This document shows, one piece after another, positions 13,184 through 48,452 of a stretch of DNA of 64,000 nt; the first letter of the stretch is position 1; every line of letters begins with the position of its first letter. Location of the stretch: the NCBI RefSeq assembly GCF_002920915.1, contig NZ_PQVF01000011.1, positions 308 to 64,307 on the forward strand, in the 5' to 3' direction. The notes under the pieces are model-generated. The model worked only from the letters and a program-made list of their open reading frames with translations. It was not told the origin of the DNA and made no database searches. The DNA is from Solitalea longa. GTDB taxonomy: Bacteria; Bacteroidota; Bacteroidia; Sphingobacteriales; Sphingobacteriaceae. The position numbers and the translations under genes are program-made.

Positions 13184-14458
13184 ATGATCTCTAACCTTAT
13201 TTCCTGGTCGCTCAGAAATCGGTTCATTGTAATTGTTGGAGTAATTGCCTTAAGTATTTGGGGATTTTACTCAATGCAGCAGACACCGATCGATGCAATA
13301 CCCGATTTATCGGAAAACCAGGTGATCGTTTATACGGAGTGGATGGGCAGAAGTCCTCAAATTATGGAAGACCAGGTAACGTTTCCATTGGTTACCAATC
13401 TCCAGGGGCTTCCAAAAGTTAAAGACGTAAGGGCTGCTTCGATGTTTGGAATGAGTTTTATCTATGTAATTTTTGAAGACAACGTAGATATCTATTGGGC
13501 CCGAACCCGCGTAATGGAACGGCTCAACTCAGCACAACGCTCATTGCCCGAAGGCGTAACTCCTACCCTTGGCCCCGATGGAACCGGTGTTGGACATATT
13601 TTTTGGTATACCTTGGATGCTCCCGGATATGATCTTGGCGAGCTTAGAGCTTTGCAGGACTGGTATGTAAAATTTGCCCTTCAAAATGTTCAGGGAGTAA
13701 GTGAAGTGGCATCTTATGGAGGCTTTCAAAAGCAATATCAGATATCCATTGATCCAAATAGGATCAACTATTACCAATTGAGTTTAATGGATGTTTTAAA
13801 CACCGTTAAGAATAACAATAATGATGTAGGCGGAAGGATTTTTGAGATGAACGGCACAGGTTATATCGTACGTGGGTTGGGCTACATTCAATCAATTGCC
13901 GATATCGAAAACATGACCATTGCCACTAAAAACTCTATTCCTATTCGTGTTAAGGATATCGGCACTGTTCAAATGGGTGGTGAGGCCCGCTTGGGCATTA
14001 CCGAAGAAAATGGAACTGGAGAAGTAGTTGGCGGTATTGTGGTAATGCGTTACGGAGAAAATGCCGATGCGGTGATTAAAAATGTGAAAGAGAAAATGAA
14101 GGAGGTCGAAAAAGGTCTTCCAAAGGGTGTAAAATTTAAAATAGCTTACGATAGAAGTGAGTTAATCGAATCGTCAATTAACAGCTTAAAAAACACCATG
14201 ACTGAGGAGATCATCCTGGTATGTATTATCATCATTATTTTCCTGTTCCATTTCAGCAGCTCTCTGGTCGTGATGCTTAATATCCCGATAGCTATTTTAT
14301 TAGGTTTTATTGCCATTAAAAATTTCGGTATTACTTCAAACATTATGTCGTTAAGCGGAATCGCTATCGCTATAGGGGTAATTGTAGACGATGGAATTGT
14401 AATGGTTGAAAATGCTTACCGCCATTTAACAGAGGAAGGAGATGATAACCATGCGTGA
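13184..14458 (+). CDS. cusA: CusA/CzcA-type heavy-metal RND pump, N-terminal part (split gene)
   Basis: First 424 residues of a CusA/CzcA-type inner-membrane proton/metal antiporter. TM1 (NRFIVIVGVIALSIWGFY), the porter subdomains with YTEWMGRSPQIMEDQVTFPL, and TM2-TM4 (IILVCIIIIIFLFHF, VVMLNIPIAILLGFIAI, IAIAIGVIVDDGIVMVENAY) are intact. The ORF stops (TGA at 14456) in the short cytoplasmic linker after TM4. The rest of the pump follows in the +1 frame from 14442. Together the halves give about 1055 residues, the normal size. The VDDGIVMVEN motif carries the expected proton-relay aspartates. Confidence 0.9.
   Translation: MISNLISWSLRNRFIVIVGVIALSIWGFYSMQQTPIDAIPDLSENQVIVYTEWMGRSPQIMEDQVTFPLVTNLQGLPKVKDVRAASMFGMSFIYVIFEDNVDIYWARTRVMERLNSAQRSLPEGVTPTLGPDGTGVGHIFWYTLDAPGYDLGELRALQDWYVKFALQNVQGVSEVASYGGFQKQYQISIDPNRINYYQLSLMDVLNTVKNNNNDVGGRIFEMNGTGYIVRGLGYIQSIADIENMTIATKNSIPIRVKDIGTVQMGGEARLGITEENGTGEVVGGIVVMRYGENADAVIKNVKEKMKEVEKGLPKGVKFKIAYDRSELIESSINSLKNTMTEEIILVCIIIIIFLFHFSSSLVVMLNIPIAILLGFIAIKNFGITSNIMSLSGIAIAIGVIVDDGIVMVENAYRHLTEEGDDNHA
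14433..14453 (+). promoter_or_regulatory. Shine-Dalgarno-like site at the cusA split
   Basis: AGGAAGGAG (14433-14441) abuts ATG 14442 and stands 9 nt before the in-frame ATG 14451. Such sites are rare before other genes in this window but recur in this operon, which favours real translation restart here. Confidence 0.55.
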
Positions 14459-16343
14459 TCCACGAAAACTTACCAATGAGCAGCGGATCGCTATCATTGA
14501 AAAATCCGCCAAACAGGTTGGCAAACCCGTTGTTTATTCAACCTTCATCATTATAATTTCATTTTTGCCCGTATTCTTATTGACTGGCCAGGAAGGTAAA
14601 TTATTTCATCCACTGGCCTGGACCAAAACATTGGTGATGCTAGCGTCGGTTATTTTGGCTATCACGTTTGTACCAGTAATGATGTCGTTTTTCTTAAAAG
14701 GAAAAATGCGTCCTGAAAGTCAAAACCCTATCAGCAATTTCTTCAACCGCATTTATGAACCCATTTTAAAATGGTGTCTTGAATGGAAGAAAACAGTTTT
14801 GGGAATTAACATACTGGCACTGATCATTTCAATCCCTATGATAATGGGCTTAGGCCGAGAGTTTATGCCGCCATTAGACGAAGGCTCCCTCCTATTTATG
14901 CCTGTAACATTGCCTGATGTTTCCAATGCAGAAGCAAAGCGAATTTTACAGATCCAGGATAAGATCATTCTATCGGTGCCGGAAGTAAAACACGTATTGG
15001 GCAAGGCCGGAAGAGCCAGCACAGCCACCGACAATGCGCCAATGAGCATGATCGAAAGTATTATTTTGCTTAAACCTCAAAGCGAGTGGCGCGAGGGAAA
15101 AACCAAAGATGATATTATCGCTGAACTGAACGCTAAACTCCAAATTCCAGGGGTAACCAATGGCTGGACACAACCGATCATTAACCGCATCAACATGCTT
15201 TCAACAGGCATCAGAACCGATGTTGGCGTTAAAGTGTATGGACAAAATCTCGATACGATTTACAGCATTTCCAGGGAAATTGAAAAAGCACTGAAAGACA
15301 TTGAAGGAATTACCGATCTCTACCCCGAACAGGTAACAGGCGGAAAATTCCTCGATATAAAGATCAAAATAGAAGAGTTGGGCCGGTTTGGATTGAGCAT
15401 TAACGATGTAAACATGATCGTTGAAAGCGCTCTTGGCGGTATGAACTTAACGAATACCGTAGAAGGTCGTGAACGCTTTAGTGTTAGTGTTCGTCTTGCG
15501 CAGGATTTCCGCAGCAGTATCAATGATATAAAACGTACGCTTATACAAACGCCAAACGGACCGGTGCCTTTATCATCAGTAGCAGATATTATGATAAAGG
15601 ATGGCCCTGCAATGATCAACTCGGAGAATGCCATGCTTCGCGGAACGGTTCTTTTTAATGTTCGGGGCAGAGATCTTGGAAACACAGTAAACGATGCCAT
15701 CAGTCGTTTGAACGAGACATTAACCTTGCCAAAGGGCTATTATATTGATTGGAGCGGGCAATGGGAAAATCAACTCAGGGCTACTAAAACGCTTTCCATT
15801 ATCGTTCCGATAGTACTGGTGATTATTTTCTTTATTCTCTACATGACCTACAACCAAGTTAAGGAAGCGATTATCACCATGATGAGTGTACCATTTGCTT
15901 TAATTGGAGGCGTGTTCCTGGTGTATTTCTGGGGAATAAACATTTCGGTTGCAGTGGCTGTAGGATTCATCGCCTTATTTGGAGTGGCGGTAGAAACCGG
16001 TATGCTGATGGTGGTTTATCTCGACGAAGCCATGAAACGAATGGTGAGAGAAAAAGGAGCTGCGGTATCAATTGCCGACTTGCGTCATTATGTAATTGAG
16101 GGATCGGCCAAACGCCTTCGCCCTAAATTAATGACTGTTTCGGTAACCTTGTTCGGCCTGGTTCCGATTCTCTGGAGCCATGGAACTGGCATCGACCTGA
16201 TGTTGCCAATTGCCTTGCCAATGATTGGTGGAATGATCACTTCAACCATACACGTATTGTTGGTAACGCCTATCATTTTTGAAATGACCAAAGAATATGA
16301 ATTGAAGAAGCATGGTAAAGTGGAGGTACTAAATGAAAAATAG
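14442..16343 (+). CDS. cusA: CusA/CzcA-type heavy-metal RND pump, C-terminal part (split gene)
   Basis: Remaining 633 residues of the pump: TM5 and TM6 (STFIIIISFLPVFLLTGQEGKLFHPLAWT, shown in family form LPVFLLTGQEGKLFHPLAWT), the second porter half with MPPLDEGSLLFMP and TDVGVKVYGQNLD, and TM8-TM12. It begins 17 bp before the stop of the first half. ATG 14451, preceded by AGGAAGGAG with a 9-nt gap, is a better start than ATG 14442. Either two polypeptides assemble, or the gene needs a +1 shift, or there is one extra base in the sequence. Downstream TolC starts within its last codons. Confidence 0.88.
   Translation: MITMRDPRKLTNEQRIAIIEKSAKQVGKPVVYSTFIIIISFLPVFLLTGQEGKLFHPLAWTKTLVMLASVILAITFVPVMMSFFLKGKMRPESQNPISNFFNRIYEPILKWCLEWKKTVLGINILALIISIPMIMGLGREFMPPLDEGSLLFMPVTLPDVSNAEAKRILQIQDKIILSVPEVKHVLGKAGRASTATDNAPMSMIESIILLKPQSEWREGKTKDDIIAELNAKLQIPGVTNGWTQPIINRINMLSTGIRTDVGVKVYGQNLDTIYSISREIEKALKDIEGITDLYPEQVTGGKFLDIKIKIEELGRFGLSINDVNMIVESALGGMNLTNTVEGRERFSVSVRLAQDFRSSINDIKRTLIQTPNGPVPLSSVADIMIKDGPAMINSENAMLRGTVLFNVRGRDLGNTVNDAISRLNETLTLPKGYYIDWSGQWENQLRATKTLSIIVPIVLVIIFFILYMTYNQVKEAIITMMSVPFALIGGVFLVYFWGINISVAVAVGFIALFGVAVETGMLMVVYLDEAMKRMVREKGAAVSIADLRHYVIEGSAKRLRPKLMTVSVTLFGLVPILWSHGTGIDLMLPIALPMIGGMITSTIHVLLVTPIIFEMTKEYELKKHGKVEVLNEK
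16322..16335 (+). promoter_or_regulatory. Ribosome binding site GGAGG-N6-ATG of tolC-like gene
   Basis: GGAGG (16322-16326), six bases, then ATG at 16333, inside the final codons of cusA. It supports the upstream start at 16333 although residues 2-20 look like repeat-derived sequence. Confidence 0.7.
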
Positions 16344-36607: not shown

Positions 36608-36629
36608 TTTTGCAAAATATTTGCAAAAC
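36608..36629. promoter_or_regulatory. Repeated TTTGCAAAA operator before the DeoR gene
   Basis: TTTTGCAAAA (36608-36617) and TTTGCAAAAC (36620-36629) repeat with an 11-bp period, one helical turn, 33 bp before the preferred DeoR start. The same TTTTGCAAAA core is in the promoter region of the sugar-acid operon at 43248-43257, suggesting both are bound by the DeoR protein. Confidence 0.55.
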
Positions 36630-36661
36630 TGCTTATTTTTATGCCAGTTAATTGCTTTGGC

Positions 36662-37435
36662 ATGAACGAAAAAGAAGTAGTACACTTTTCAAAAGAAGAC
36701 AGGAAAAACCATATTCTAAAGGAAATCAACTTACACACGCGTGTGAGTTTTGAAACACTTTCCAATCAACTTTCTGTTTCAGAAGATACAATTAGAAGAG
36801 ATATCAATGAATTGGAAGCTGAATCACTGGTTATAAAAGTAAAAGGTGGTGCGATGACAAAAGCGTATCATCATACTTCATTAACAGAAACTTACGCTGG
36901 CGATGCCAAAAGAATAATTGCTGAAAAAACAGTTAATCTGCTTAAGAATAATATGGTTTTGCTCATTGGAGGAGGCACCACCATAAGAGAATTTATTCGA
37001 ATAATTCCAACCGATTTATCACTTACTGTTTTCACTGTCAATGTTTTATCGGCTGTTGAACTTCTTGACAAACCTAATATCAAAACGATCATGATTGGCG
37101 GAAGCATTTCACCTTATAGCCAGATGTGTGTAAGTGGTGATGTTTATAATCAGTTAGCCAACATTAAAGCAGATCTATTGATCTTAGGAACTAACGCTCT
37201 TGCTATTGAAGGTGGTTTTTCGGATTCAGACTGGGAAACGGTTCAGGTAAAAAAAGCAATGATAAAAGCTGCTAAAAAGACCGCCATTTTAACCATTTCT
37301 GAAAAATTGAATACAGAGCTGAAAATGAAAATCGCCAGTTTATCAGAAGTAGATTTTGTAATTACCGAAATTAATGCTGATAGTGATAAACTAACCCCTT
37401 ATAAGCAATCCGTACCTAAATTAACCTTTCTTTAA
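36662..37435 (+). CDS. DeoR-family regulator of the adjacent sugar-acid operon
   Basis: A 257-residue regulator from ATG 36662 (ATG 36641 adds seven residues). The N-terminal DeoR helix-turn-helix is HTRVSFETLSNQLSVSEDTI followed by RRDINELEAE. The C-terminal DeoRC phosphosugar-sensor domain includes LLIGGGTTIREFIR and MIGGSISP and LILGTNALAIEGGFSDSDWE. DeoR proteins usually bind a phosphorylated sugar pathway intermediate. It converges with, and overlaps by 4 bp, the last gene of the minus-strand operon; KDPG or KDG would be a logical ligand (inference). Confidence 0.92.
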   Translation: MNEKEVVHFSKEDRKNHILKEINLHTRVSFETLSNQLSVSEDTIRRDINELEAESLVIKVKGGAMTKAYHHTSLTETYAGDAKRIIAEKTVNLLKNNMVLLIGGGTTIREFIRIIPTDLSLTVFTVNVLSAVELLDKPNIKTIMIGGSISPYSQMCVSGDVYNQLANIKADLLILGTNALAIEGGFSDSDWETVQVKKAMIKAAKKTAILTISEKLNTELKMKIASLSEVDFVITEINADSDKLTPYKQSVPKLTFL

Positions 37436-38502
37436 TCCCAGTTTTTCATCAGGAAATTGATCCAATTCTGGTGGAAGATATTATTTAAGTCTTCCTGTGA
37501 ATAACCATGATTTCTGAAAATGACAACCAACTTTTGCAAATCAGCAATTGTGTCTAAATCGTAAGGACATTGCTCTGTGCCAAAAGCACCGTCAAGATCG
37601 GAACCGACACCTATATGAAGCGCATTACCTGCAAGCTGGCAGATATGATCCATATGTTTAAAGACTGTCTCCATAGAACATTCCATTTTCAGTGGAGTTG
37701 AAACACCTCTTTGCCAATCAGGCACCAACATCCATGCATCTAAAGCTCCCCCAATAACGGCTCCTCTTTTAATTAATTCCTTAATTTGATCATCACTGTA
37801 TTGTCGATTATGGTTTACCAGGCTGCGGCAATTGTTATGGCTTGCCCATACCGGACCGTTGAAATTGTCCATGGCTTGCCAAAATGCATCATCACAAAGG
37901 TGGGTAGCATCCAATATAATATTCAAGCGTTCCATTTCTTTGAGCAAGGCAATCCCATTTGAATTCATTTTTCCAGCGGCATCCGTTCCGTTTGCATACC
38001 TTCCCGGACCATAATGTGCCGGCCCAACCGCCCGTAAACCATAATTAAAAGCTCTTTCGAGATACGATAAATCAACCAGCGAATCAGCTCCTTCTAAACT
38101 TAAAATATAGCCAATTGGCTTTTTATCATTAGCAGTTCCATCGTTCCATAAATCAATTTGCTGGCGGAGTGATTTCTTATCCGTAATCTGAACCATTTCA
38201 CCGGCATCTTCCATTGATTTATACCAGGCAAGCTGTGCCTGGGTTTGTGCCCATGCTTGTTCCGGAGAATTCCATCCTGGAATAATACTATCCGGCTTTA
38301 CATAGCGGGCAATCTGGGTGGCCACTACAATTCCAATATTCCCCTTCCTTAAATCCGGTAATGAAACAGTTGCTCTTTCTCGATCAGGCTTATCCGTCAT
38401 GCCTTTCTCAAGAAAACGAAGTGTATGAGCATCATTTCTTAAATCCCTGTTCCATTCCATAGCATTCATGCTAAGGTCGAGATGTGCATCAACAATAAAC
38501 AT
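37432..38502 (-). CDS. M19 membrane-dipeptidase family protein
   Basis: Zinc dipeptidase of about 356 residues from ATG 38502. The metal site is clear: VDAHLDLS (HxD) at the N-terminus, LSLEGADSL (bridging Glu), DATHLCDDAFW and ASHNNCRSL (zinc histidines), and GVGSDLDGAF (the Asp). No signal peptide, so it is probably cytoplasmic. Bacterial M19 enzymes often cleave dipeptides whose C-terminal residue is D. As last gene of the operon it may release the substrate of the PLP enzyme from a dipeptide or an N-acylated form. Confidence 0.9.
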   Translation of the reverse strand: MFIVDAHLDLSMNAMEWNRDLRNDAHTLRFLEKGMTDKPDRERATVSLPDLRKGNIGIVVATQIARYVKPDSIIPGWNSPEQAWAQTQAQLAWYKSMEDAGEMVQITDKKSLRQQIDLWNDGTANDKKPIGYILSLEGADSLVDLSYLERAFNYGLRAVGPAHYGPGRYANGTDAAGKMNSNGIALLKEMERLNIILDATHLCDDAFWQAMDNFNGPVWASHNNCRSLVNHNRQYSDDQIKELIKRGAVIGGALDAWMLVPDWQRGVSTPLKMECSMETVFKHMDHICQLAGNALHIGVGSDLDGAFGTEQCPYDLDTIADLQKLVVIFRNHGYSQEDLNNIFHQNWINFLMKNWD

Positions 38503-38521
38503 AGAAACTAGTGTAATCTGA

Positions 38522-39640
38522 TTAAATATTAATTTTCCTTTTACGTGCTGTAATTGCCCAACTATCAACTATTTCATGCTGATCATCAATTATCTGCATG
38601 TCATCATATAATGCACAGGTTGGACAAACATGATACGGAATAGCATAAACTTTTTCGCCAATTAAGTAATCCCTGGTACCACGATTCTCCAAAACCAAAT
38701 GCTCTTCTGAATGAGCAATCGGAACCAGTTCTTTATCATTCAAAATAACCAGGCGTTTATCCAGCGGATTTTCAGCGGCAACTGATTTGTAGCCTAAATC
38801 AACACATAAAGTACCAGGCGTTGGCTTAGAAATAATGGACCCAACGAGCAGTGCAGCTGTTTCGAATGGCTGTTCCGGTAGATTTGTTTGATAATTTACA
38901 TCCCAAAACACAAAAGTTCCCGGACTGCATTCCACATCTTTGCAGTTTGCATAAATCGGAAATGTATTAGATCCTCCGGCAACAATTTTCAATTTATACT
39001 CAAGTTGATTTTCAATATTCGCAAGCTGGTTCATCACTTTTGCAAGTGATTCTTCCACCAATTGTTTTCGTTGTTCCACCAAACCCTTTATATGACCGTC
39101 ATAAATATGCAGTCCGGCCAAATTTAGATTAGGCATTCTGCTTATAAGAACCGCCATTAAAGCCCAGTCTGCATTTATATCTACACCGGTTCTATTCATC
39201 CCGGTATTTAGATCAAGATAAACGGTAAGTTTCAAGCCATTTATCACTGCTAAATCAGAAAGTTGTTGTGCAACTTGAAGATCATCAACAATAACCGAAA
39301 ATGCAGCATCCGGATACTTAAGTATTAGGTCAATCCAACGTTGCCGCTTGCCCCCGGTTGGTTGATAAGCCAATAAAATATCCTTTATACCAAATATGGC
39401 ACTTAATTCTGCCTCTGCAATAGTGGCACATTTAACCTTGTTAATACCATAACTCTTATACAGGTTAAGAATTTCGCCACACTTATGTGTTTTTATATGA
39501 GGTCTTAAACGCTGGGTATCTCCATCTATTAAGTCAATCAGCAGTTCAATATTGTGTTTTACAGGGTTCAGGTAAACAGCCAGAAATGGAGTATCTGGAA
39601 GCGTTTCAGGTTTTATCTCCCACCAGTAATCGTTCATCAT
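38522..39640 (-). CDS. Fold-III PLP enzyme, D-threonine aldolase/D-serine dehydratase family
   Basis: A 372-residue PLP protein. The PLP lysine is in RPHIKTHK, in an alanine-racemase-like N-terminal barrel (LAGLHIYDGHIKG, LKIVAGGSNTFPIYA). The C-terminal beta domain ends in PIAHSEEHLVLE and IPYHVCPTCALYDD, whose His and Cys match the Zn/Mn ligands of D-serine dehydratase and D-threonine aldolase. It lies between the KDPG aldolase gene and the dipeptidase gene. Possible reactions: elimination of ammonia from a D-2-amino acid, such as D-glucosaminate to KDG, or D-threonine-type aldol cleavage. Sequence does not decide. Confidence 0.88.
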   Translation of the reverse strand: MMNDYWWEIKPETLPDTPFLAVYLNPVKHNIELLIDLIDGDTQRLRPHIKTHKCGEILNLYKSYGINKVKCATIAEAELSAIFGIKDILLAYQPTGGKRQRWIDLILKYPDAAFSVIVDDLQVAQQLSDLAVINGLKLTVYLDLNTGMNRTGVDINADWALMAVLISRMPNLNLAGLHIYDGHIKGLVEQRKQLVEESLAKVMNQLANIENQLEYKLKIVAGGSNTFPIYANCKDVECSPGTFVFWDVNYQTNLPEQPFETAALLVGSIISKPTPGTLCVDLGYKSVAAENPLDKRLVILNDKELVPIAHSEEHLVLENRGTRDYLIGEKVYAIPYHVCPTCALYDDMQIIDDQHEIVDSWAITARKRKINI

Positions 39641-39642
39641 AC

Positions 39643-40290
39643 TTAGTTTCTTGCTTTGTTAATAAGCGTAATCAAATTGCTGAACAATTGATATGATAAA
39701 TCATAATCAAGTCTTTCAAGGGTTTCTTTAGAAAACAAATGCGAACCAATCCCTACGCAAGAAACACCTGAGGAAAACCAATCCTTAATATTCTCTTCTT
39801 GTAAGGTTACACCTCCGGTAGGCATTAATTTCAGGTTGGGGAATGGAGCTTTAATAGCTCTGACATAGCCGGGACCGCCAATTTTATCAGCCGGAAATAG
39901 CTTTACCAATTCAGCTCCAAGCCTGTTGGCATACAACACTTCGTTTAAGGTTGCAGCTCCCGGAATCCAGTAAATTTTATTATCGATACAGTATCGGCCT
40001 ATCTCCGGATCGATATGCGGGCAAATGATACAATCGGCTCCTGCCTCCTTATAATCAATTGCATCCTCAACAGTCAGGATAGATCCAACAGCTATTTTAA
40101 TATCGAGATTATGTCTGGCTCTTACATCAAGCATATGAGTAAAAACTTCTTTTGAGTTTGCTGAACGGGTGGCAAACTCAATAACTTTAATACCTGCATC
40201 GGCTGCTGATCTGAGGATAATTTCAGCAGTTTCAGCACTTATATGGGTAACCAATGGGAGAACCCCTTGTTTATTTAAGATATGGTACAT
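39643..40290 (-). CDS. eda: KDPG/KHG aldolase (Eda family)
   Basis: A 215-residue class I aldolase that cleaves 2-keto-3-deoxy-6-phosphogluconate to pyruvate and glyceraldehyde-3-phosphate. Key residues are present: E in IEFATRSANS (position about 38), the Schiff-base lysine in LVKLFPADKIGGPG and LMPTGGVTLQE before the phosphate site. It starts 10 bp after the kinase stop. With the kinase it forms the lower pathway for KDG. Confidence 0.92.
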   Translation of the reverse strand: MYHILNKQGVLPLVTHISAETAEIILRSAADAGIKVIEFATRSANSKEVFTHMLDVRARHNLDIKIAVGSILTVEDAIDYKEAGADCIICPHIDPEIGRYCIDNKIYWIPGAATLNEVLYANRLGAELVKLFPADKIGGPGYVRAIKAPFPNLKLMPTGGVTLQEENIKDWFSSGVSCVGIGSHLFSKETLERLDYDLSYQLFSNLITLINKARN

Positions 40291-40300
40291 TGGATACTAT

Positions 40301-41332
40301 TTATCGGCTTATTCGATTACTCGAGCCGTTTTTGATAAAATGAGCAACTTCTTCTGCTGAAGAGATGGCAAAATCGCCATGCACACTTTGCTTGATAACA
40401 CCGCATGCAACCGCCCATTCAATACATTCCTGTGCTGAAAGTTTATTGATCAATCCATAAAGCAAACCAGCTGTAAACGCATCTCCCGATCCAATTTGAT
40501 CGGTTACCCAATGTATTGCATGCTGCTTTGATTCAAAAAAACTCCCCTCATGTATTAACATAGCGGAGTACAAATGAGACAATCCATCCGACTTTCTAAA
40601 GCTCATTGCCAGGGTTTTCAGATGGGGCATTTTTTTGGCTAAAAATTGATAAGCCTGTAGGAACCGTTCAGCATCGCTAATGCTCTTATTGGTTTTTAAT
40701 CCAAAGTAAATTTCTATTGAATCTAAATCGGCAACAGCAATTGTGCTATAGTTTAGCAAACCGGGCATTATCTCGGATGCTGCTTTTCCATACTGCCATA
40801 ATTTTGAGCGGTAATTAAAATCCGAAGAAATTATTTGTCCATTATTATAAGCTGCCTGTATCGCCTCAGAACAAACCTGGCTTGCCTCATAAGAAACAGC
40901 TGCACTTGAACCCGACCAATGAAAATGGGTGCTTTTTTCAAATATTGAAGCCCAATCAATTTGCTTTAAACCAATGGTGGCAAAAGATGAATTAGTACGA
41001 TCGTAAATAACTTGAGATTGCCGGATTTGATTGCCATTTTCAAAAAAATACAAGCCCATTCGATCTCCTCCAAAAATGCACTGCTGAGTATCTACACCAT
41101 ATTTGAGTAATTCACTTAAAGCAAGTCGGGCCAAATCATTATCAGGAAGCCTGGTAATAAACTCTGTAGCAATACCCAATTGAGAGAGCAATACACTTAC
41201 ATTAGCCTCAGCACCTCCGATATGAACATTCAGTTCAGTGGTTTGTGTAAACCGAGCTCCATTTTTGACACTCAATCGTAACAATAACTCTCCAAAGGAA
41301 ACTACTTTCGGCTCTCTGACAATCGTATTCAT
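40301..41332 (-). CDS. PfkB-family sugar kinase, probably 2-keto-3-deoxygluconate kinase
   Basis: A 343-residue kinase. The PfkB first signature is in VHIGGAEANVSVLLSQLG, and the second in DQIGSGDAFTAGLLYGL with the catalytic Asp in GSGD. An ELLLRLS start and GLYFFENGNQIRQSQVIYDR in the substrate part resemble KDG kinases. Its place next to an Eda gene supports KDG to KDPG phosphorylation, although other 2-keto-deoxy acids are possible. It is 12 bp after the RidA-like gene. Confidence 0.88.
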   Translation of the reverse strand: MNTIVREPKVVSFGELLLRLSVKNGARFTQTTELNVHIGGAEANVSVLLSQLGIATEFITRLPDNDLARLALSELLKYGVDTQQCIFGGDRMGLYFFENGNQIRQSQVIYDRTNSSFATIGLKQIDWASIFEKSTHFHWSGSSAAVSYEASQVCSEAIQAAYNNGQIISSDFNYRSKLWQYGKAASEIMPGLLNYSTIAVADLDSIEIYFGLKTNKSISDAERFLQAYQFLAKKMPHLKTLAMSFRKSDGLSHLYSAMLIHEGSFFESKQHAIHWVTDQIGSGDAFTAGLLYGLINKLSAQECIEWAVACGVIKQSVHGDFAISSAEEVAHFIKNGSSNRISR

Positions 41333-41344
41333 TTACGGGGTCTC

Positions 41345-41812
41345 TTAATTTAGTTCAAAAAGTGCTTCAACTTCAACCGGAATATTATCAGGTAAAGAAC
41401 CCATACCCACGGCACTTCTTACACCAATACCGTTTTCCTGGCCCCAAACTTCTGCAAACAGTTCACTACATCCGTTTATAACGTAAGGATGTCGTAAAAA
41501 ATCACCGGTACAGTTAACCATACCCAAAACTTTGATCACTCTTTTAACTGCATTCAGGCTACCGAAGTTGGTTACAATGGTTGAAAGCATCGTTAAGCCA
41601 ACCTGACGCGCAGCCAACTTTCCTGCTTCAATATCCATATCCTCACCTATCCTACCAATAATTAGCGATTTATCATTTTGAACAGGCCCATGACCTGACA
41701 GGTATAAGTATTTACCTTCTACCAGGAACGGTTTATAAATTCCCAAAGGTTGAGGCGCGGGAGGAAGTGTTAAGCCTAGCGCTTCAAATTTTTCTTGTGG
41801 AAGTGAGTTCAT
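41345..41812 (-). CDS. RidA/YjgF-family enamine/imine deaminase
   Basis: A 155-residue protein of the larger YjgF-like branch. YLSGHGPVQ near residue 37, GQENGIGVRSAVGMGSLPDN with the substrate-binding Arg and IPVEVEALFEL at the end fit the family. RidA proteins hydrolyse the enamine/imine made by PLP dehydratases and release ammonia and keto acid. In one operon with a fold-III PLP enzyme this supports an amino-acid or amino-sugar-acid dehydration step. Confidence 0.9.
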   Translation of the reverse strand: MNSLPQEKFEALGLTLPPAPQPLGIYKPFLVEGKYLYLSGHGPVQNDKSLIIGRIGEDMDIEAGKLAARQVGLTMLSTIVTNFGSLNAVKRVIKVLGMVNCTGDFLRHPYVINGCSELFAEVWGQENGIGVRSAVGMGSLPDNIPVEVEALFELN

Positions 41813-41813
41813 G

Positions 41814-43136
41814 TTACTTCTGAATAATAAAGTTTACTATAAAAATGAAGGTAATACCCAGCACCGAAACCAGTGACTCCATAACGGTCCAGGTTTTAAA
41901 GGTATCTTTCATACTGATATTGAAATATTCTTTGAACATCCAAAAACTTGGATCATTTACATGTGAGCACATTAAACTGCCTGCTCCTATTGACAATACC
42001 AAAAGATTAGGATCAATCCCATTAACCTGTAATAAAGGTAATAAAACACCGGCAGTCATTAAACCAGCTGCTGTAGCCGAACCAATACAAACCCGTATGA
42101 TGGCGGCCATTACCCAGGCAAGCAGGTAAGGATGGATATCTAGTTGAATTAAATATTGAACAATAGACTGACTTACCCCACTTACAGACATTACTTCCTT
42201 CAAGCATCCTGCTCCACCAACAATGAATATGATCATAGCAACATCTTTAATGGCCACGGCATAATCGTCCATAACCATCTTCAAACTTTTACCACTACGA
42301 ATACCTAAGGTATATGTGCATATTAAAAGCGAAACAAGCATTATACTACTAGGGCTTCCCAAGGTTTTACAAACAGCTATGAGCAAAGGGTCCTTCCAGA
42401 TTAATGGCAACAGGGAAGTTATGGTTAATCCAAAAACCGGGAATAATGAAGATAAAATACTAACAGCAAATCCCGGCTGCATGTTACCGTTAACAAACTC
42501 TTCAACTTTTACGATTTCGTTGGACGCATTCTCCTTGATATTCTTAAAAAAATTGGAGAATAATAACCCGGCAATAAGAATGGTTGGTATTGCAATTAAG
42601 ATCCCATAAATCAGCACCATCCCTATATTTGCATTGAACATTTTACTTAATGCCATAGGCGATGGATGGGGAGGTAAAAATCCATGGGCAACAGAAAGAG
42701 AGGCCAGCATTGGGATACCTAAATACACCTTTGGTAATTTAAGCTGATAAGCAATTGAAAAGATCAAAGGGATTAATAACACAAAGCCAACACTGTAAAA
42801 CAGCGGAATACCAACAATAAAACCCGTGGTCATTAAACCTAAGCGAACATACTTAGGGCCAGTCCAGTTCATAATGGTTTTGGCTATTACATTGGCAGCT
42901 CCCGATGAAACAGTCAGCTTTCCAATACAGGTTCCGAAAATTATGACCAGTGAAATTGCCCCTAGCATATCACCCATTCCCTTTTCTATGGTTTGAGGTA
43001 ATGTTGATATAGGCAAACCCAAAAGTAACCCGGCGATTATAGAAGTGATGATGAAGGCCAAAAACGGGTTAACTTTTAAGACAGTGATTTGTAAGATGAG
43101 AAAAACAATGCAAGCTATCAGAATCAAAACACTCAT
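41814..43136 (-). CDS. GntP-family gluconate-type permease
   Basis: A 440-residue proton symporter from ATG 43136; the preceding 14 residues of open frame are not hydrophobic. About 12-14 TM segments are visible, with FLPPHPSPMALSKMFNANIG and GSLMCSHVNDPSFWMFKEYF, both GntP hallmarks. GntP proteins carry gluconate and related acids, D-serine (DsdX) or fructuronate. As first gene of the operon it takes up the substrate. One base separates its stop from the next start. Confidence 0.93.
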   Translation of the reverse strand: MSVLILIACIVFLILQITVLKVNPFLAFIITSIIAGLLLGLPISTLPQTIEKGMGDMLGAISLVIIFGTCIGKLTVSSGAANVIAKTIMNWTGPKYVRLGLMTTGFIVGIPLFYSVGFVLLIPLIFSIAYQLKLPKVYLGIPMLASLSVAHGFLPPHPSPMALSKMFNANIGMVLIYGILIAIPTILIAGLLFSNFFKNIKENASNEIVKVEEFVNGNMQPGFAVSILSSLFPVFGLTITSLLPLIWKDPLLIAVCKTLGSPSSIMLVSLLICTYTLGIRSGKSLKMVMDDYAVAIKDVAMIIFIVGGAGCLKEVMSVSGVSQSIVQYLIQLDIHPYLLAWVMAAIIRVCIGSATAAGLMTAGVLLPLLQVNGIDPNLLVLSIGAGSLMCSHVNDPSFWMFKEYFNISMKDTFKTWTVMESLVSVLGITFIFIVNFIIQK

Positions 43137-43214
43137 TGGCTTTTCGTTTTGGAGTTTTTTAAGTTGAAATATTATCACAAATCATCAACACGGTTCTATG
43201 CACCTGTATCAAGC

Positions 43215-43276
43215 CAAATATATAAATTAATTTACAATTTGCTTTTTTTTTGCAAAATGATGCTATTTTTTTGCAA
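43215..43276 (-). promoter_or_regulatory. Operator and -7 box of the sugar-acid operon
   Basis: On the minus strand TATATTTG (43222-43215) fits a -7 box; a good -33 is not visible. Upstream lie two 16-bp direct repeats, seen on the plus strand as TGC-T9-GCAA (43240-43255) and TGCTA-T7-GCAA (43261-43276), 21 bp apart. The first contains TTTTGCAAAA (43248-43257), also present before the DeoR gene. Two-turn spacing supports binding of a dimeric repressor. Confidence 0.55.
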
Positions 43277-46131: not shown

Positions 46132-46407
46132 CTTGAGATCATTATGCTTTCATGGAATGAAACAAGGACCTACGGAACAAAAATGTTAGCATCACGCAAT
46201 TCCAACATGAATTAAACACTTGGTTTTTAGAATATTTTATCATTTAAAAATCAAAACATCACACAGGAACCATCTAATAACCTTTTTCCAAAGCATTGCT
46301 CAGGAAAACTTGCAAACCTCCCCCCTTCAGCTAACAAGGTCGTTACACTGGCTTTGCTTTTTTATTCAGCTTACGATCAGTATTTTCGGTGCACAAAACC
46401 AATCATA

Positions 46408-47034
46408 ATGATCAGTATTAACTCGGTTAAACAATTCTATAACGGCGCTACTCAACTCCATTTCAACGACTGGTTGGTTAATTCGGGCGAACATTGGCTG
46501 ATGCTAGGTGGTTCGGGAACGGGAAAAACAACTTTGCTGCATATTATTAGCGGTTTATTAAAACCGACCGAGGGCAACGTTAACATAGAAGGTACTGATT
46601 TATATAGTTTGAAGGGCGCTGATCTTGATCATTTCAGAGGAAGAAATATTGGTGTTATCTTCCAACAGCCCCATTTGATTAAAAACCTTAACGTTTTAAA
46701 CAATGTAATAGCTGCCCAATATTTTGCCGGTTTAAAGGAAGATAAAAAGCGAGCATTGGAAGTACTTGAGTCATTAGGCTTATCATCAAAAACTAAATCC
46801 CTTCCTGCGGAACTTAGCCAGGGACAAATGCAGCGGGTAGCGATTGCTCGGGCTGTTGTCAATCATCCAAAAATTGTTATTGCTGATGAACCTACCTCAA
46901 GCCTGGATGACGAAAACACTGATTCGGTATTGAAACTTCTTGAAGAACAGGCAGAACGTAATAAAGCAACATTGGTAATTGCTACGCATGATGAACGGGT
47001 AAAAAAACGATTGACAAGACAATACATGCTTTAA
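46408..47034 (+). CDS. LolD/MacB-type ABC transporter ATP-binding protein
   Basis: A 208-residue nucleotide-binding subunit from ATG 46408. Walker A is GGSGTGKTT, the Q loop is GVIFQQPHLI, the signature LSQGQMQRVAIA and Walker B IVIADEPTSSLD. Together with the FtsX-type permease gene 95 bp downstream it forms a type VII (MacB-like) system. The three DUF3299-like genes that follow suggest a metal-related or lipoprotein-related role. Confidence 0.92.
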   Translation: MISINSVKQFYNGATQLHFNDWLVNSGEHWLMLGGSGTGKTTLLHIISGLLKPTEGNVNIEGTDLYSLKGADLDHFRGRNIGVIFQQPHLIKNLNVLNNVIAAQYFAGLKEDKKRALEVLESLGLSSKTKSLPAELSQGQMQRVAIARAVVNHPKIVIADEPTSSLDDENTDSVLKLLEEQAERNKATLVIATHDERVKKRLTRQYML

Positions 47035-47098
47035 TTAGAGAATCACCAATTTGTTATCAACAAGCATAAAAAGCCGAAGCTCTCGACATGCAATTCAA

Positions 47099-47129
47099 CA
47101 ATCTAAAATCGTCAATCTAAAATCAATAG
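47099..47129 (+). repeat. CAATCTAAAATCGTCAATCT repeat
   Basis: Two direct copies of CAATCTAAAATC separated by GT sit just before the permease ATG. The related element is at 11655-11690 behind copA. Confidence 0.55.
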
Positions 47130-48452
47130 ATGAATCTTTTAAAACTTAGCTGGTATAATTTAAAAGCCAATATACTTTCCACACTTCTGAATGTTTTATT
47201 GCTTTCTTTCGGCATAGGAATTATTGCCTTACTCATGCTGGCCTCCGACCAGATAGGCAAGAAACTGGAAAGCAATGCAAAAGGGGTTGATGCTGTTGTG
47301 GGCGCTAAAGGAAGCCCCCTGCAACTAATCCTTTCGAGCATTTATCAGATCGATAATCCTACCGGCAACATTAAACAATCAGAGGCGCAAATGATTATGC
47401 GCAATCAAGCGGTAAAACTGGCGGTCCCGCTGGGTCTTGGCGACAGTTATGAGCAATTTCGAATTGTAGGCACAAACGCAAAATATGCTGAACTTTATGA
47501 ATTAACACTGGCTGAAGGCAAACCATTCGACACCTTATTTGAAGTAAATATTGGCGCCACCGTGGCAAAGGTAAAACACCTGAAAATTGGTGACAGCTTT
47601 CATGGTTCACATGGTTTGGTTGAAGGAGGAGAAGAACATCATGAGCATAACTATAAAGTAGTAGGCATATTCAAAGAATCAGGCTCTATTGCCGATAACC
47701 TGGTACTTACTTCCATGCCGAGTATATGGGCCATGCATACCGAAAGTACAGCTCATGAGGCCCCTCATAAGCATCAACAAGGCGAAGTTGAAACAATGGG
47801 GCCCGATGCAGGCTTCGAAGAATCTAAATTAGTACATGACCAGTTTCATGGGGAAGCTCCACTTGAAGAGACAACAACTCCAGTTCCTGCGCCAATAGAA
47901 AATCAAAATGAGCCGGAAATAACTTCCATATTAATTAAATATCGCTCACCGGTAAGTGTGGTTACCTTCCCTCGTTTTGTAAATACACAAACCAATATGC
48001 AAGCCGCTTCTCCGGCTCAAGAGAGTGCTCGCCTGTTTTCATTGATCGGTGTTGGAGTAAAAGCCATGCAGTGGTTTGCAGGGCTCATTATCATTATTTC
48101 AATTTTCAGCGTATTTATCAGTTTGTATAATTCGTTAAAAGAGCGCAAATACGATCTGGCCATCATTCGTACGATGGGAGCCCCTCGAAGTAAAGTATTT
48201 TTGCTGATCATTACCGAGGGACTGCTTTTAGCCATAATTGCTACATTTATTGGCTTATTATGGTCGCATGGAGCGCTTGAGTTTATCGGGCATAATCAAG
48301 ACACTGAACAAACCAAATTAACCGGTTTAACGTTTTTAAAAGACGAATGGAAACTTATTTTCGGTGGATTGGTTATTGGACTAATCGCTTCGGTAATTCC
48401 AGCTATTCAGGCTTATAAAGTTGATATATCGAGAACCTTAGCAAATAGCTGA
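47130..48452 (+). CDS. FtsX/MacB-type ABC permease with a His-rich periplasmic loop
   Basis: A 440-residue permease. TM1 (LLNVLLLSFGIGIIALLML), a periplasmic domain of about 270 residues and three C-terminal TMs (WFAGLIIIISIFSVFISLY, VFLLIITEGLLLAIIATFI, GGLVIGLIASVIPAIQAYK) give the FtsX topology. The periplasmic part carries two His-rich stretches, EGGEEHHEHNY near residue 165 and HTESTAHEAPHKHQQGE near 205, which could bind zinc or copper. Partner of the preceding ATPase. Confidence 0.9.
   Translation: MNLLKLSWYNLKANILSTLLNVLLLSFGIGIIALLMLASDQIGKKLESNAKGVDAVVGAKGSPLQLILSSIYQIDNPTGNIKQSEAQMIMRNQAVKLAVPLGLGDSYEQFRIVGTNAKYAELYELTLAEGKPFDTLFEVNIGATVAKVKHLKIGDSFHGSHGLVEGGEEHHEHNYKVVGIFKESGSIADNLVLTSMPSIWAMHTESTAHEAPHKHQQGEVETMGPDAGFEESKLVHDQFHGEAPLEETTTPVPAPIENQNEPEITSILIKYRSPVSVVTFPRFVNTQTNMQAASPAQESARLFSLIGVGVKAMQWFAGLIIIISIFSVFISLYNSLKERKYDLAIIRTMGAPRSKVFLLIITEGLLLAIIATFIGLLWSHGALEFIGHNQDTEQTKLTGLTFLKDEWKLIFGGLVIGLIASVIPAIQAYKVDISRTLANS

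Follow-up and report, generated by a model that had tools for sequence, protein, structure and literature searches.

The 64-kb window analysed here, that is, the whole stretch of Solitalea longa DNA under study (G+C 38%; contig 3 of a 4.5 Mb genome that is 99.99% complete), carries at 36641-43178 six genes on the minus strand and, converging on them, a gene for a DeoR regulator, all with open reading frames (ORFs). This operon probably encodes a Bacteroidota route for the use of N-acetyl-D-glucosaminate (GlcNAc1A), the C1-oxidized end of chitooligosaccharides. Its gene content and order, their conservation, the distribution of an operator-like repeat and the co-occurrence of its parts were observed in the genomes themselves, and from these we infer every substrate, reaction and regulatory role. 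From the first gene of the operon to the regulator, the genes are:

41814..43136, minus strand: GntP-family permease, probably for sugar-acid uptake; ORF open to 43178 (PF02447, TIGR00791)
41345..41812, minus strand: Rid-family protein, probable imine/enamine hydrolase (PF14588, PDB 3d01)
40301..41332, minus strand: PfkB kinase, probable 2-keto-3-deoxygluconate (KDG) kinase (PF00294, PDB 2afb)
39643..40290, minus strand: aldolase of the 2-keto-3-deoxy-6-phosphogluconate (KDPG)/2-keto-4-hydroxyglutarate (KHG) family (PF01081; PDB 8di1, 1wa3)
38522..39640, minus strand: fold-III pyridoxal phosphate (PLP) enzyme, probable D-glucosaminate dehydratase/deaminase (PF01168 and PF14031; K50, H337-x-C339)
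37432..38505, minus strand: M19 amidohydrolase, probable GlcNAc1A N-deacetylase; ORF open to 38568 (PF01244)
36641..37435, plus strand: DeoR-family regulator, convergent (PF00455 and PF08220)

Counting from gntP, the operon genes are separated by 1, 12, 10, 2 and about 16 bases, and the M19 and deoR ORFs overlap tail to tail by 4 bases at their 3' ends. These coordinates bear out an earlier note on this DNA, which had described a closely spaced six-gene minus-strand cluster with a convergent DeoR gene, and Pfam returned the gene families that it had named (PF02447, PF14588, PF00294, PF01081, PF01168 with PF14031, PF01244, and PF00455 with PF08220). Its RidA-like label held for the Rid family at large; the best match is PF14588, and canonical PF01042 falls below its cutoff. 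Translation likely starts at 43136 rather than 43178 for GntP (homologues of about 439 aa) and probably at the Met at 38505 rather than 38568 for the M19 protein (homologues of about 356 aa).

In the proposed pathway, GntP would import GlcNAc1A, and the M19 amidohydrolase would strip its acetyl group to leave D-glucosaminate. From this compound, which in chemical terms is a beta-hydroxy D-amino acid, the PLP enzyme would eliminate water, and the Rid protein would help to convert the resulting enamine or imine into KDG and ammonia. KDG would then be phosphorylated to KDPG by the PfkB kinase and cleaved by the aldolase into pyruvate and glyceraldehyde-3-phosphate, while DeoR, acting at an inverted repeat of 17 bases, would repress both the operon genes and deoR itself. 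The amino-sugar-acid chemistry of this scheme (PLP-dependent elimination, Rid, KDG, KDPG) had been put forward before and appears to fit the protein families and the H-x-C motif of the PLP enzyme; its likely substrate is here sharpened to GlcNAc1A.

The closest known system is the ong pathway of Pseudoalteromonas prydzensis ACAM 620. The cluster encodes a TonB receptor, the glycoside hydrolase family 20 (GH20) enzyme OngA, an SSS carrier, the deacetylase OngB, the fold-III PLP enzyme OngC, the RidA protein OngD, KdgK and an RpiR-type repressor, and the pathway leads from GlcNAc1A to KDPG, some clusters adding a KDPG aldolase (PMC9537276). Mutants lacking ongB, ongC, ongD or kdgK did not grow on GlcNAc1A; OngC accepts D-serine and D-threonine for deamination as well, and OngD is essential, with a role reported as unknown (PMC9537276). 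The published survey, which relied on similarity to the ong genes, reports the full pathway in Gammaproteobacteria and a single Betaproteobacterium and nowhere else (PMC9537276), and it would have missed a pathway assembled from distantly related proteins. Both systems combine an operon with an inner-membrane carrier, an amidohydrolase, a fold-III PLP enzyme, a Rid protein, a PfkB KDG kinase and a repressor. The ong cluster includes GH20 and TonB-type outer-membrane uptake, whereas the Bacteroidota counterpart of these occurs in relatives only; it uses an SSS carrier and RpiR where the window operon has GntP and DeoR; and its KDPG aldolase, present in some clusters, is matched by the KDPG-type aldolase of the window. 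The window operon belongs to Bacteroidota, and no AA10 lytic polysaccharide monooxygenase (LPMO) was found in the 60 genomes searched.

For protein-level comparison, the ong cluster of Vibrio sp. THAF191d (NZ_CP046066.1) served as the yardstick, its genes (GH20, aldolase, kinase, SSS, RidA, OngB, OngC, RpiR) being named from ORFs by resemblance to the published list. The first two Vibrio matches (L131, L132) were set aside as not lying in an ong cluster; a further PF14031 match in the first record did. Vibrio OngB matches the P. prydzensis enzyme in PDB (PpOngB) at E 2.8e-170 and, best of all, 9g5m at 3.1e-192. The window and Vibrio proteins are 20% identical for the PLP enzyme (E 1e-16), 24% for the kinase (6e-9) and 27% for the aldolase (3e-23). 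The Rid protein and OngD gave a non-significant E of 0.59, and neither the M19 protein nor GntP had a significant match among the Vibrio ong proteins. Vibrio OngC matches PDB 3gwq at 1.7e-104 and the window PLP enzyme does so at 1.8e-11, which puts the latter outside the OngC subfamily. With Vibrio OngB as tblastn query, the window and the loci gathered by then gave hits only in L120, unlinked to the operon in the host genome, and weakly in L141; none fell in the cluster. The two systems appear to share functions and broad superfamilies. With the ong pathway already known, what seems new here is a variant made of distant or other-family proteins, with an M19 protein as candidate carbohydrate deacetylase; no paper on such a Bacteroidota locus was among the open-licence papers listed.

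The earlier note had instead likened the operon to a counterpart, without a phosphotransferase system (PTS), of the Salmonella dga route. That route (see PMC9529869) likewise ends at a 2-keto-3-deoxy-6-phospho acid, using a D-glucosaminate PTS and a glucosaminate-6-phosphate ammonia-lyase, whereas in the window operon elimination would precede phosphorylation. Neither a PTS permease nor that ammonia-lyase is encoded among the operon genes, to which the search was confined. The dga route was rejected as the closest relative, and the ong pathway, with its fold-III PLP enzyme, KDG kinase and Rid protein, takes its place.

The assignments of the other enzymes rest on domain models and solved structures. 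GntP matches PF02447 at E 3e-131 and TIGR00791 with 448.6 bits against a cutoff of 292.75; it also matches the DsdX D-serine carrier model, under that model's cutoff. The Rid protein matches PF14588 at E 1.6e-13, the uncharacterized chain PDB 3d01 at E 8e-27, and the PDB chains of PA0814 and ACIAD3089, both labelled Rid family protein. The nearest PDB chain of the kinase is 2afb, named 2-keto-3-deoxygluconate kinase (E 6e-59 over 336 residues), and the aldolase matches PF01081 (E 3.7e-33), 8di1 (KDPG and KHG aldolase, 7e-37) and 1wa3 (KDPG aldolase, 1.5e-30). Against NCBIfam, the kinase reached 188.8 bits for NF041332 (cutoff 440) and the aldolase 145.3 bits for TIGR01182 (cutoff 156.05); because both scores lie under the curated cutoffs, these models do not certify the two enzymes. 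By their Pfam and PDB matches, the KDG-kinase and KDPG-aldolase families are both present in the operon.

The PLP enzyme carries the PF01168 and PF14031 domains, the lysine and the H-x-C motif of fold-III D-serine dehydratase-like enzymes. K50, H337 and C339 are invariant in a 13-sequence alignment, and the H-x-C motif also occurs in Vibrio OngC. In D-serine dehydratases, the H-x-C pair is a zinc ligand. The enzyme shares its domains and nearest solved relatives with the family of D-threonine aldolase, D-serine dehydratase and BhcC; those nearest chains are D-threonine aldolases (4v15, E 1.9e-29) and D-3-hydroxyaspartate aldolase, and the score against the BhcC model NF045642 is 126 bits, the cutoff being 690. 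The two aligned D-threonine aldolases have H-x-D where the window enzyme has H337-x-C339, so that it lacks the metal motif of those aldolases. Given the H-x-C motif, dehydratase activity is more likely than aldolase activity.

The M19 protein matches PF01244 at E 9.5e-45, and its alignment to solved M19 chains keeps the E, H, H, R and D positions in the aligned part. Family and aligned active-site residues are common to it and the renal and bacterial M19 dipeptidases; in contrast to these, the window subfamily follows the pathway's PLP gene. At E <=1e-60, 16 of the 19 genomes that encode the PLP enzyme have this subfamily, and none of the 12 same-family genomes lacking the enzyme has it, two of these 12 coming from the window's own genus (Fisher 3e-6, kinship uncorrected, in a set of 31 hand-picked genomes, many chosen because their PLP locus lacked M19). 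M19 enzymes bind a free carboxylate via a conserved arginine. Since the M19 protein is the sole amide hydrolase of the operon and GlcNAc1A is shaped like an N-acetyl-D-amino acid and offers such a free carboxylate, it is placed as the equivalent of OngB. It probably acts as the GlcNAc1A N-deacetylase, and this is the weakest step of the scheme. A dipeptidase releasing the substrate from a peptide or N-acyl form had been suggested before; the N-acyl half of that suggestion gains from the GH20 and SusC/SusD linkage seen in relatives, which makes a peptide less likely.

Conservation of the locus was assessed in 93 loci, comprising the best 80 of 590 confirmed loci from a scan of the species genome collection and 13 stretches from relatives. 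Gene order in other Bacteroidota, which the earlier note had left as a check, is indeed conserved: 25 of 31 Flavobacterium loci show GntP-Rid-PfkB-aldolase-PLP-M19 in unchanged order, the DeoR gene is convergent in all 31, and another genome of the window's genus (G002) has all seven genes in the same order. Among 49 other named loci, some of them cut by contig ends, Rid lies directly upstream of the PLP gene in 37, M19 directly downstream in 29 and GntP upstream in 17; a window-like kinase is present in two (Pedobacter L060 and L061) and the aldolase in none. These counts point to a widespread core of Rid, PLP and M19, often with GntP, to which kinase and aldolase are an addition. A PF01081 aldolase is encoded elsewhere in all 28 searched genomes whose locus lacks one, a weak test given that PF01081 also matches in 8 of 14 control genomes. 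No substrate clue came from the Mucilaginibacter core neighbours (a GH63-like protein, PAP2 and three proteins without a Pfam match), nor from most of the 30 annotated neighbours of relatives' loci.

Across a 60-genome set of relatives that includes the host genome, the PLP gene occurs at E <=1e-30 in 12, and in two of four within the genus. A tree of 69 rows, built by a quick method, grouped the window PLP enzyme with those of its own genus, Flavobacterium and Pedobacter L060/L061 (support 99). Fourteen rows were labelled for the kinase trait, among them three (L038, L052, L055) without a kinase in the locus. The Pseudoflavitalea enzymes, whose kinase lies in a companion operon, fall outside this group, so that the kinase trait needs two changes. 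The enzyme of a same-family genome (G016) pairs with one from an uncultured Mucilaginibacter (SH-aLRT 100), which by inference places the window in Sphingobacteriaceae. OngC sits on a very long branch of uncertain position. A search of viral contigs found no relatives of the PLP enzyme. In genome G022, a second copy of the PLP gene (L029, 1719-2820) is apparently broken in two pieces.

The proposed link to chitin comes from the neighbours of the locus in other genomes. GH20 stands beside pathway genes in 38 of the 93 loci, namely all 31 from Flavobacterium and L019, L022, L023, L027, L060, L061 and L068; a representative in L030 matches the GH20 beta-hexosaminidase model PF00728 at E 5e-121 and is 34% identical to Vibrio OngA. 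In every Flavobacterium locus it is divergent from deoR, these loci not being independent of one another, and GH20 was seen in the cluster or putative regulon in Flavobacterium, Pedobacter, Arcicella and Pseudoflavitalea relatives. Within the 60-genome set, GH20 lies within 10 kb of 4 of 14 PLP sites, against 0.28 expected (Poisson P 2e-4). A SusC and SusD pair precedes gntP in 24 of the 31 Flavobacterium loci and recurs in L068. Eight regions were also fetched around M19 genes away from the PLP gene: two Pseudoflavitalea regions (L138, L139) read SusC-SusD-GH20-Rid-PfkB-M19, Pedobacter caeni (L136) has SusC-SusD-Rid-M19, Pedobacter ginsengisoli (L137) has M19-Rid next to a divergent GntP, and L142 has GntP-Rid 2.4 kb from M19 on the opposite strand. 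The same parts therefore recur in varied arrangements, and this linkage favours an N-acetyl substrate over a peptide. The host genome itself has five GH18 matches, one of them borderline, and four GH20 matches. The Arcicella locus L068, with SusC-SusD-Rid-PLP-M19-GH20, also contains an alpha-L-fucosidase (PF01120, 6842-8203), which a plain chitin substrate leaves unexplained.

Operator-like sequences flank the operon on both sides:

36610..36626: inverted repeat TTGCA-N7-TGCAA, 17 bases, upstream of deoR
43215..43222, minus strand: putative TAnnTTTG-type promoter element, downstream of the repeats (by eye)
43239..43255: inverted repeat with one base changed, upstream of gntP
43260..43276: second, imperfect repeat copy, 21 bases further upstream of gntP (by eye)

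TAnnTTTG is what we take to be the promoter consensus. Tandem copies at similar spacing were also seen by eye upstream of susC or gntP in Flavobacterium. A relaxed, A/T-centred form of the repeat occurs at three places in the 4.5 Mb host genome; two flank this operon, and the third, on contig 35, falls within an ORF and has no pathway gene in its vicinity. The pattern read backwards, used as a control, gave one match. Of the 29 exact sites in 35 loci (670 kb), 11 precede the operon and 14 lie in the deoR-GH20 interval; the intervals holding these 25 sites make up 1.9% of the bases. Per Flavobacterium locus, the exact repeat is found upstream of the operon in 8 of 31 and in the deoR-GH20 interval in 14 of 31; with at most one mismatch, these counts rise to 26 and 23, the upstream sequence being short in four of the loci scanned. 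At that tolerance the density is 5.93 sites per kb in these intervals and 0.055 elsewhere, while three control motifs were flat, which shows that the enrichment is not due to composition and no more than that. Because the repeat was read off part of the regions later counted, these figures describe the enrichment and do not test it, and a binomial value computed from such counts is not to be read as a probability. An initial motif of two boxes 4-5 bases apart proved too narrow and gave way to the inverted repeat of 17 bases. The five Flavobacterium loci L052-L056, which lack kinase and aldolase, also lack the upstream SusC/SusD and the deoR-GH20 repeat; L038 lacks kinase, aldolase and SusC/SusD and keeps the repeat between deoR and GH20.

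Several observations weigh against the GlcNAc1A route. Beside the window's own operon there is no GH20 and no SusC/SusD; a different contig carries the nearest GH20 of the host genome (L110, sharing 49-53% identity with the GH20 proteins of the loci), and the host's four GH20 genes have no exact repeat within a distance of about 10 kb. When Flavobacterium and the window's genus are set aside, 54 of the remaining 61 loci have no GH20 in their 20 kb or less of sequence. Six Flavobacterium operons (L038, L052-L056) lack both kinase and aldolase, and eight of the 31 loci (L031, L048, L052-L057) have no repeat, even with one mismatch, between deoR and GH20. Three of the 19 PLP-bearing genomes lack the M19 subfamily, M19 proteins carry the name dipeptidase, the window protein has no match to Vibrio OngB, and in three of the eight unlinked M19 regions (L135, L140, L141) no pathway partner was seen. 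The PLP gene and M19 also keep other company in L090 and, judging by shared gene clusters, in L021, L067 and L096. Finally, AA10 LPMO (PF03067) was found in none of the 60 genomes searched, the host included, a set without Flavobacterium; GlcNAc1A would accordingly come from the LPMOs of other organisms.

Three other explanations draw on these points. The substrate of the operon might be D-glucosaminate in free form, or a different 2-amino aldonic acid such as one derived from galactosamine, with M19 releasing it from a peptide or other acyl conjugate instead of taking off acetate. The kinase and aldolase matches fail to separate KDG from 2-keto-3-deoxygalactonate (KDGal), the M19 relatives are named as dipeptidases, and GntP is the only carrier in the window operon, without oligosaccharide uptake; but GH20 and SusC/SusD accompany the same genes in several genera and point to an N-acetylhexosamine-containing oligosaccharide, and we regard this explanation as unlikely. 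A slightly poorer prospect is a simple beta-hydroxy D-amino acid such as D-serine or D-threonine, freed from dipeptides by M19, with the kinase and aldolase serving something else. It would suit the kinship of the PLP enzyme to D-threonine aldolase and D-3-hydroxyaspartate aldolase, its nearest relatives among solved structures, the many relatives and six Flavobacterium operons without kinase and aldolase, the sub-cutoff DsdX match of GntP, and the activity of OngC on D-serine and D-threonine reported in PMC9537276. It leaves unexplained, however, why a KDG-type kinase, a KDPG-type aldolase, GH20 and SusC/SusD should share one putative regulon or companion operons.

The remaining alternative concerns the deacetylation step and is about as improbable as the D-amino acid one. 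The host genome encodes, unlinked to the operon, another candidate deacetylase (L120, 1411-3147), a 578-aa D-aminoacylase-family protein that is 32% identical to Vibrio OngB over 530 positions, has 9g5m as its best PDB match (E 2.9e-79) as Vibrio OngB does, and begins with what by eye resembles a signal peptide, being apparently secreted. This enzyme could deacetylate GlcNAc1A, probably outside the cytoplasm, with GntP importing D-glucosaminate and M19 as an accessory. Among named chains, however, D-aminoacylase (E 6e-72) is a closer match for the protein than PpOngB (E 1.4e-63), its gene stands apart from the operon, and M19 is the enzyme whose co-occurrence with the PLP gene was seen. The GlcNAc1A route with M19 as deacetylase remains the preferred account.

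Some neighbouring features deserve description. In L090 (3330-9008), the PLP-family gene and an M19 relative, 56-60% identical to that of the window, stand with two 3-hydroxyacyl-CoA dehydrogenase-like proteins, a class III aminotransferase and a ceramidase-like protein; L096 has a canonical RidA. Loci of the L090 type probably belong to a different amine or amino acid pathway. In the window, an ABC ATPase and permease pair (46354-48452) lies 3 kb from the operon and is 50-56% identical to a pair in Pedobacter L135/L136, which is there within 3 kb of the M19 gene, a shared neighbourhood. At 13184-16343, two overlapping ORFs (424 and 633 aa) resemble one large gene, presumably for an efflux pump, and a frameshift or assembly error is possible.

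The wider proposal is that Bacteroidota assembled an oxidized-chitin pathway separately, with an M19 protein turned N-deacetylase, a D-threonine-aldolase-like enzyme turned D-glucosaminate dehydratase and GlcNAc1A supplied by the LPMOs of other organisms; we hold this to be evenly balanced between right and wrong. The operon is also relevant to the question why Rid proteins turn up repeatedly in pathways of this kind, OngD being essential in the ong pathway (PMC9537276). If the proposal is true, the consumers of LPMO products would be widened to Flavobacterium, Pedobacter, Pseudoflavitalea and the window's genus at least, cross-feeding would be suggested, and the carbohydrate deacetylases would gain a new family. 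Genes now named dipeptidase, D-threonine aldolase (D-TA) family enzyme and gluconate symporter would thereby acquire a function.

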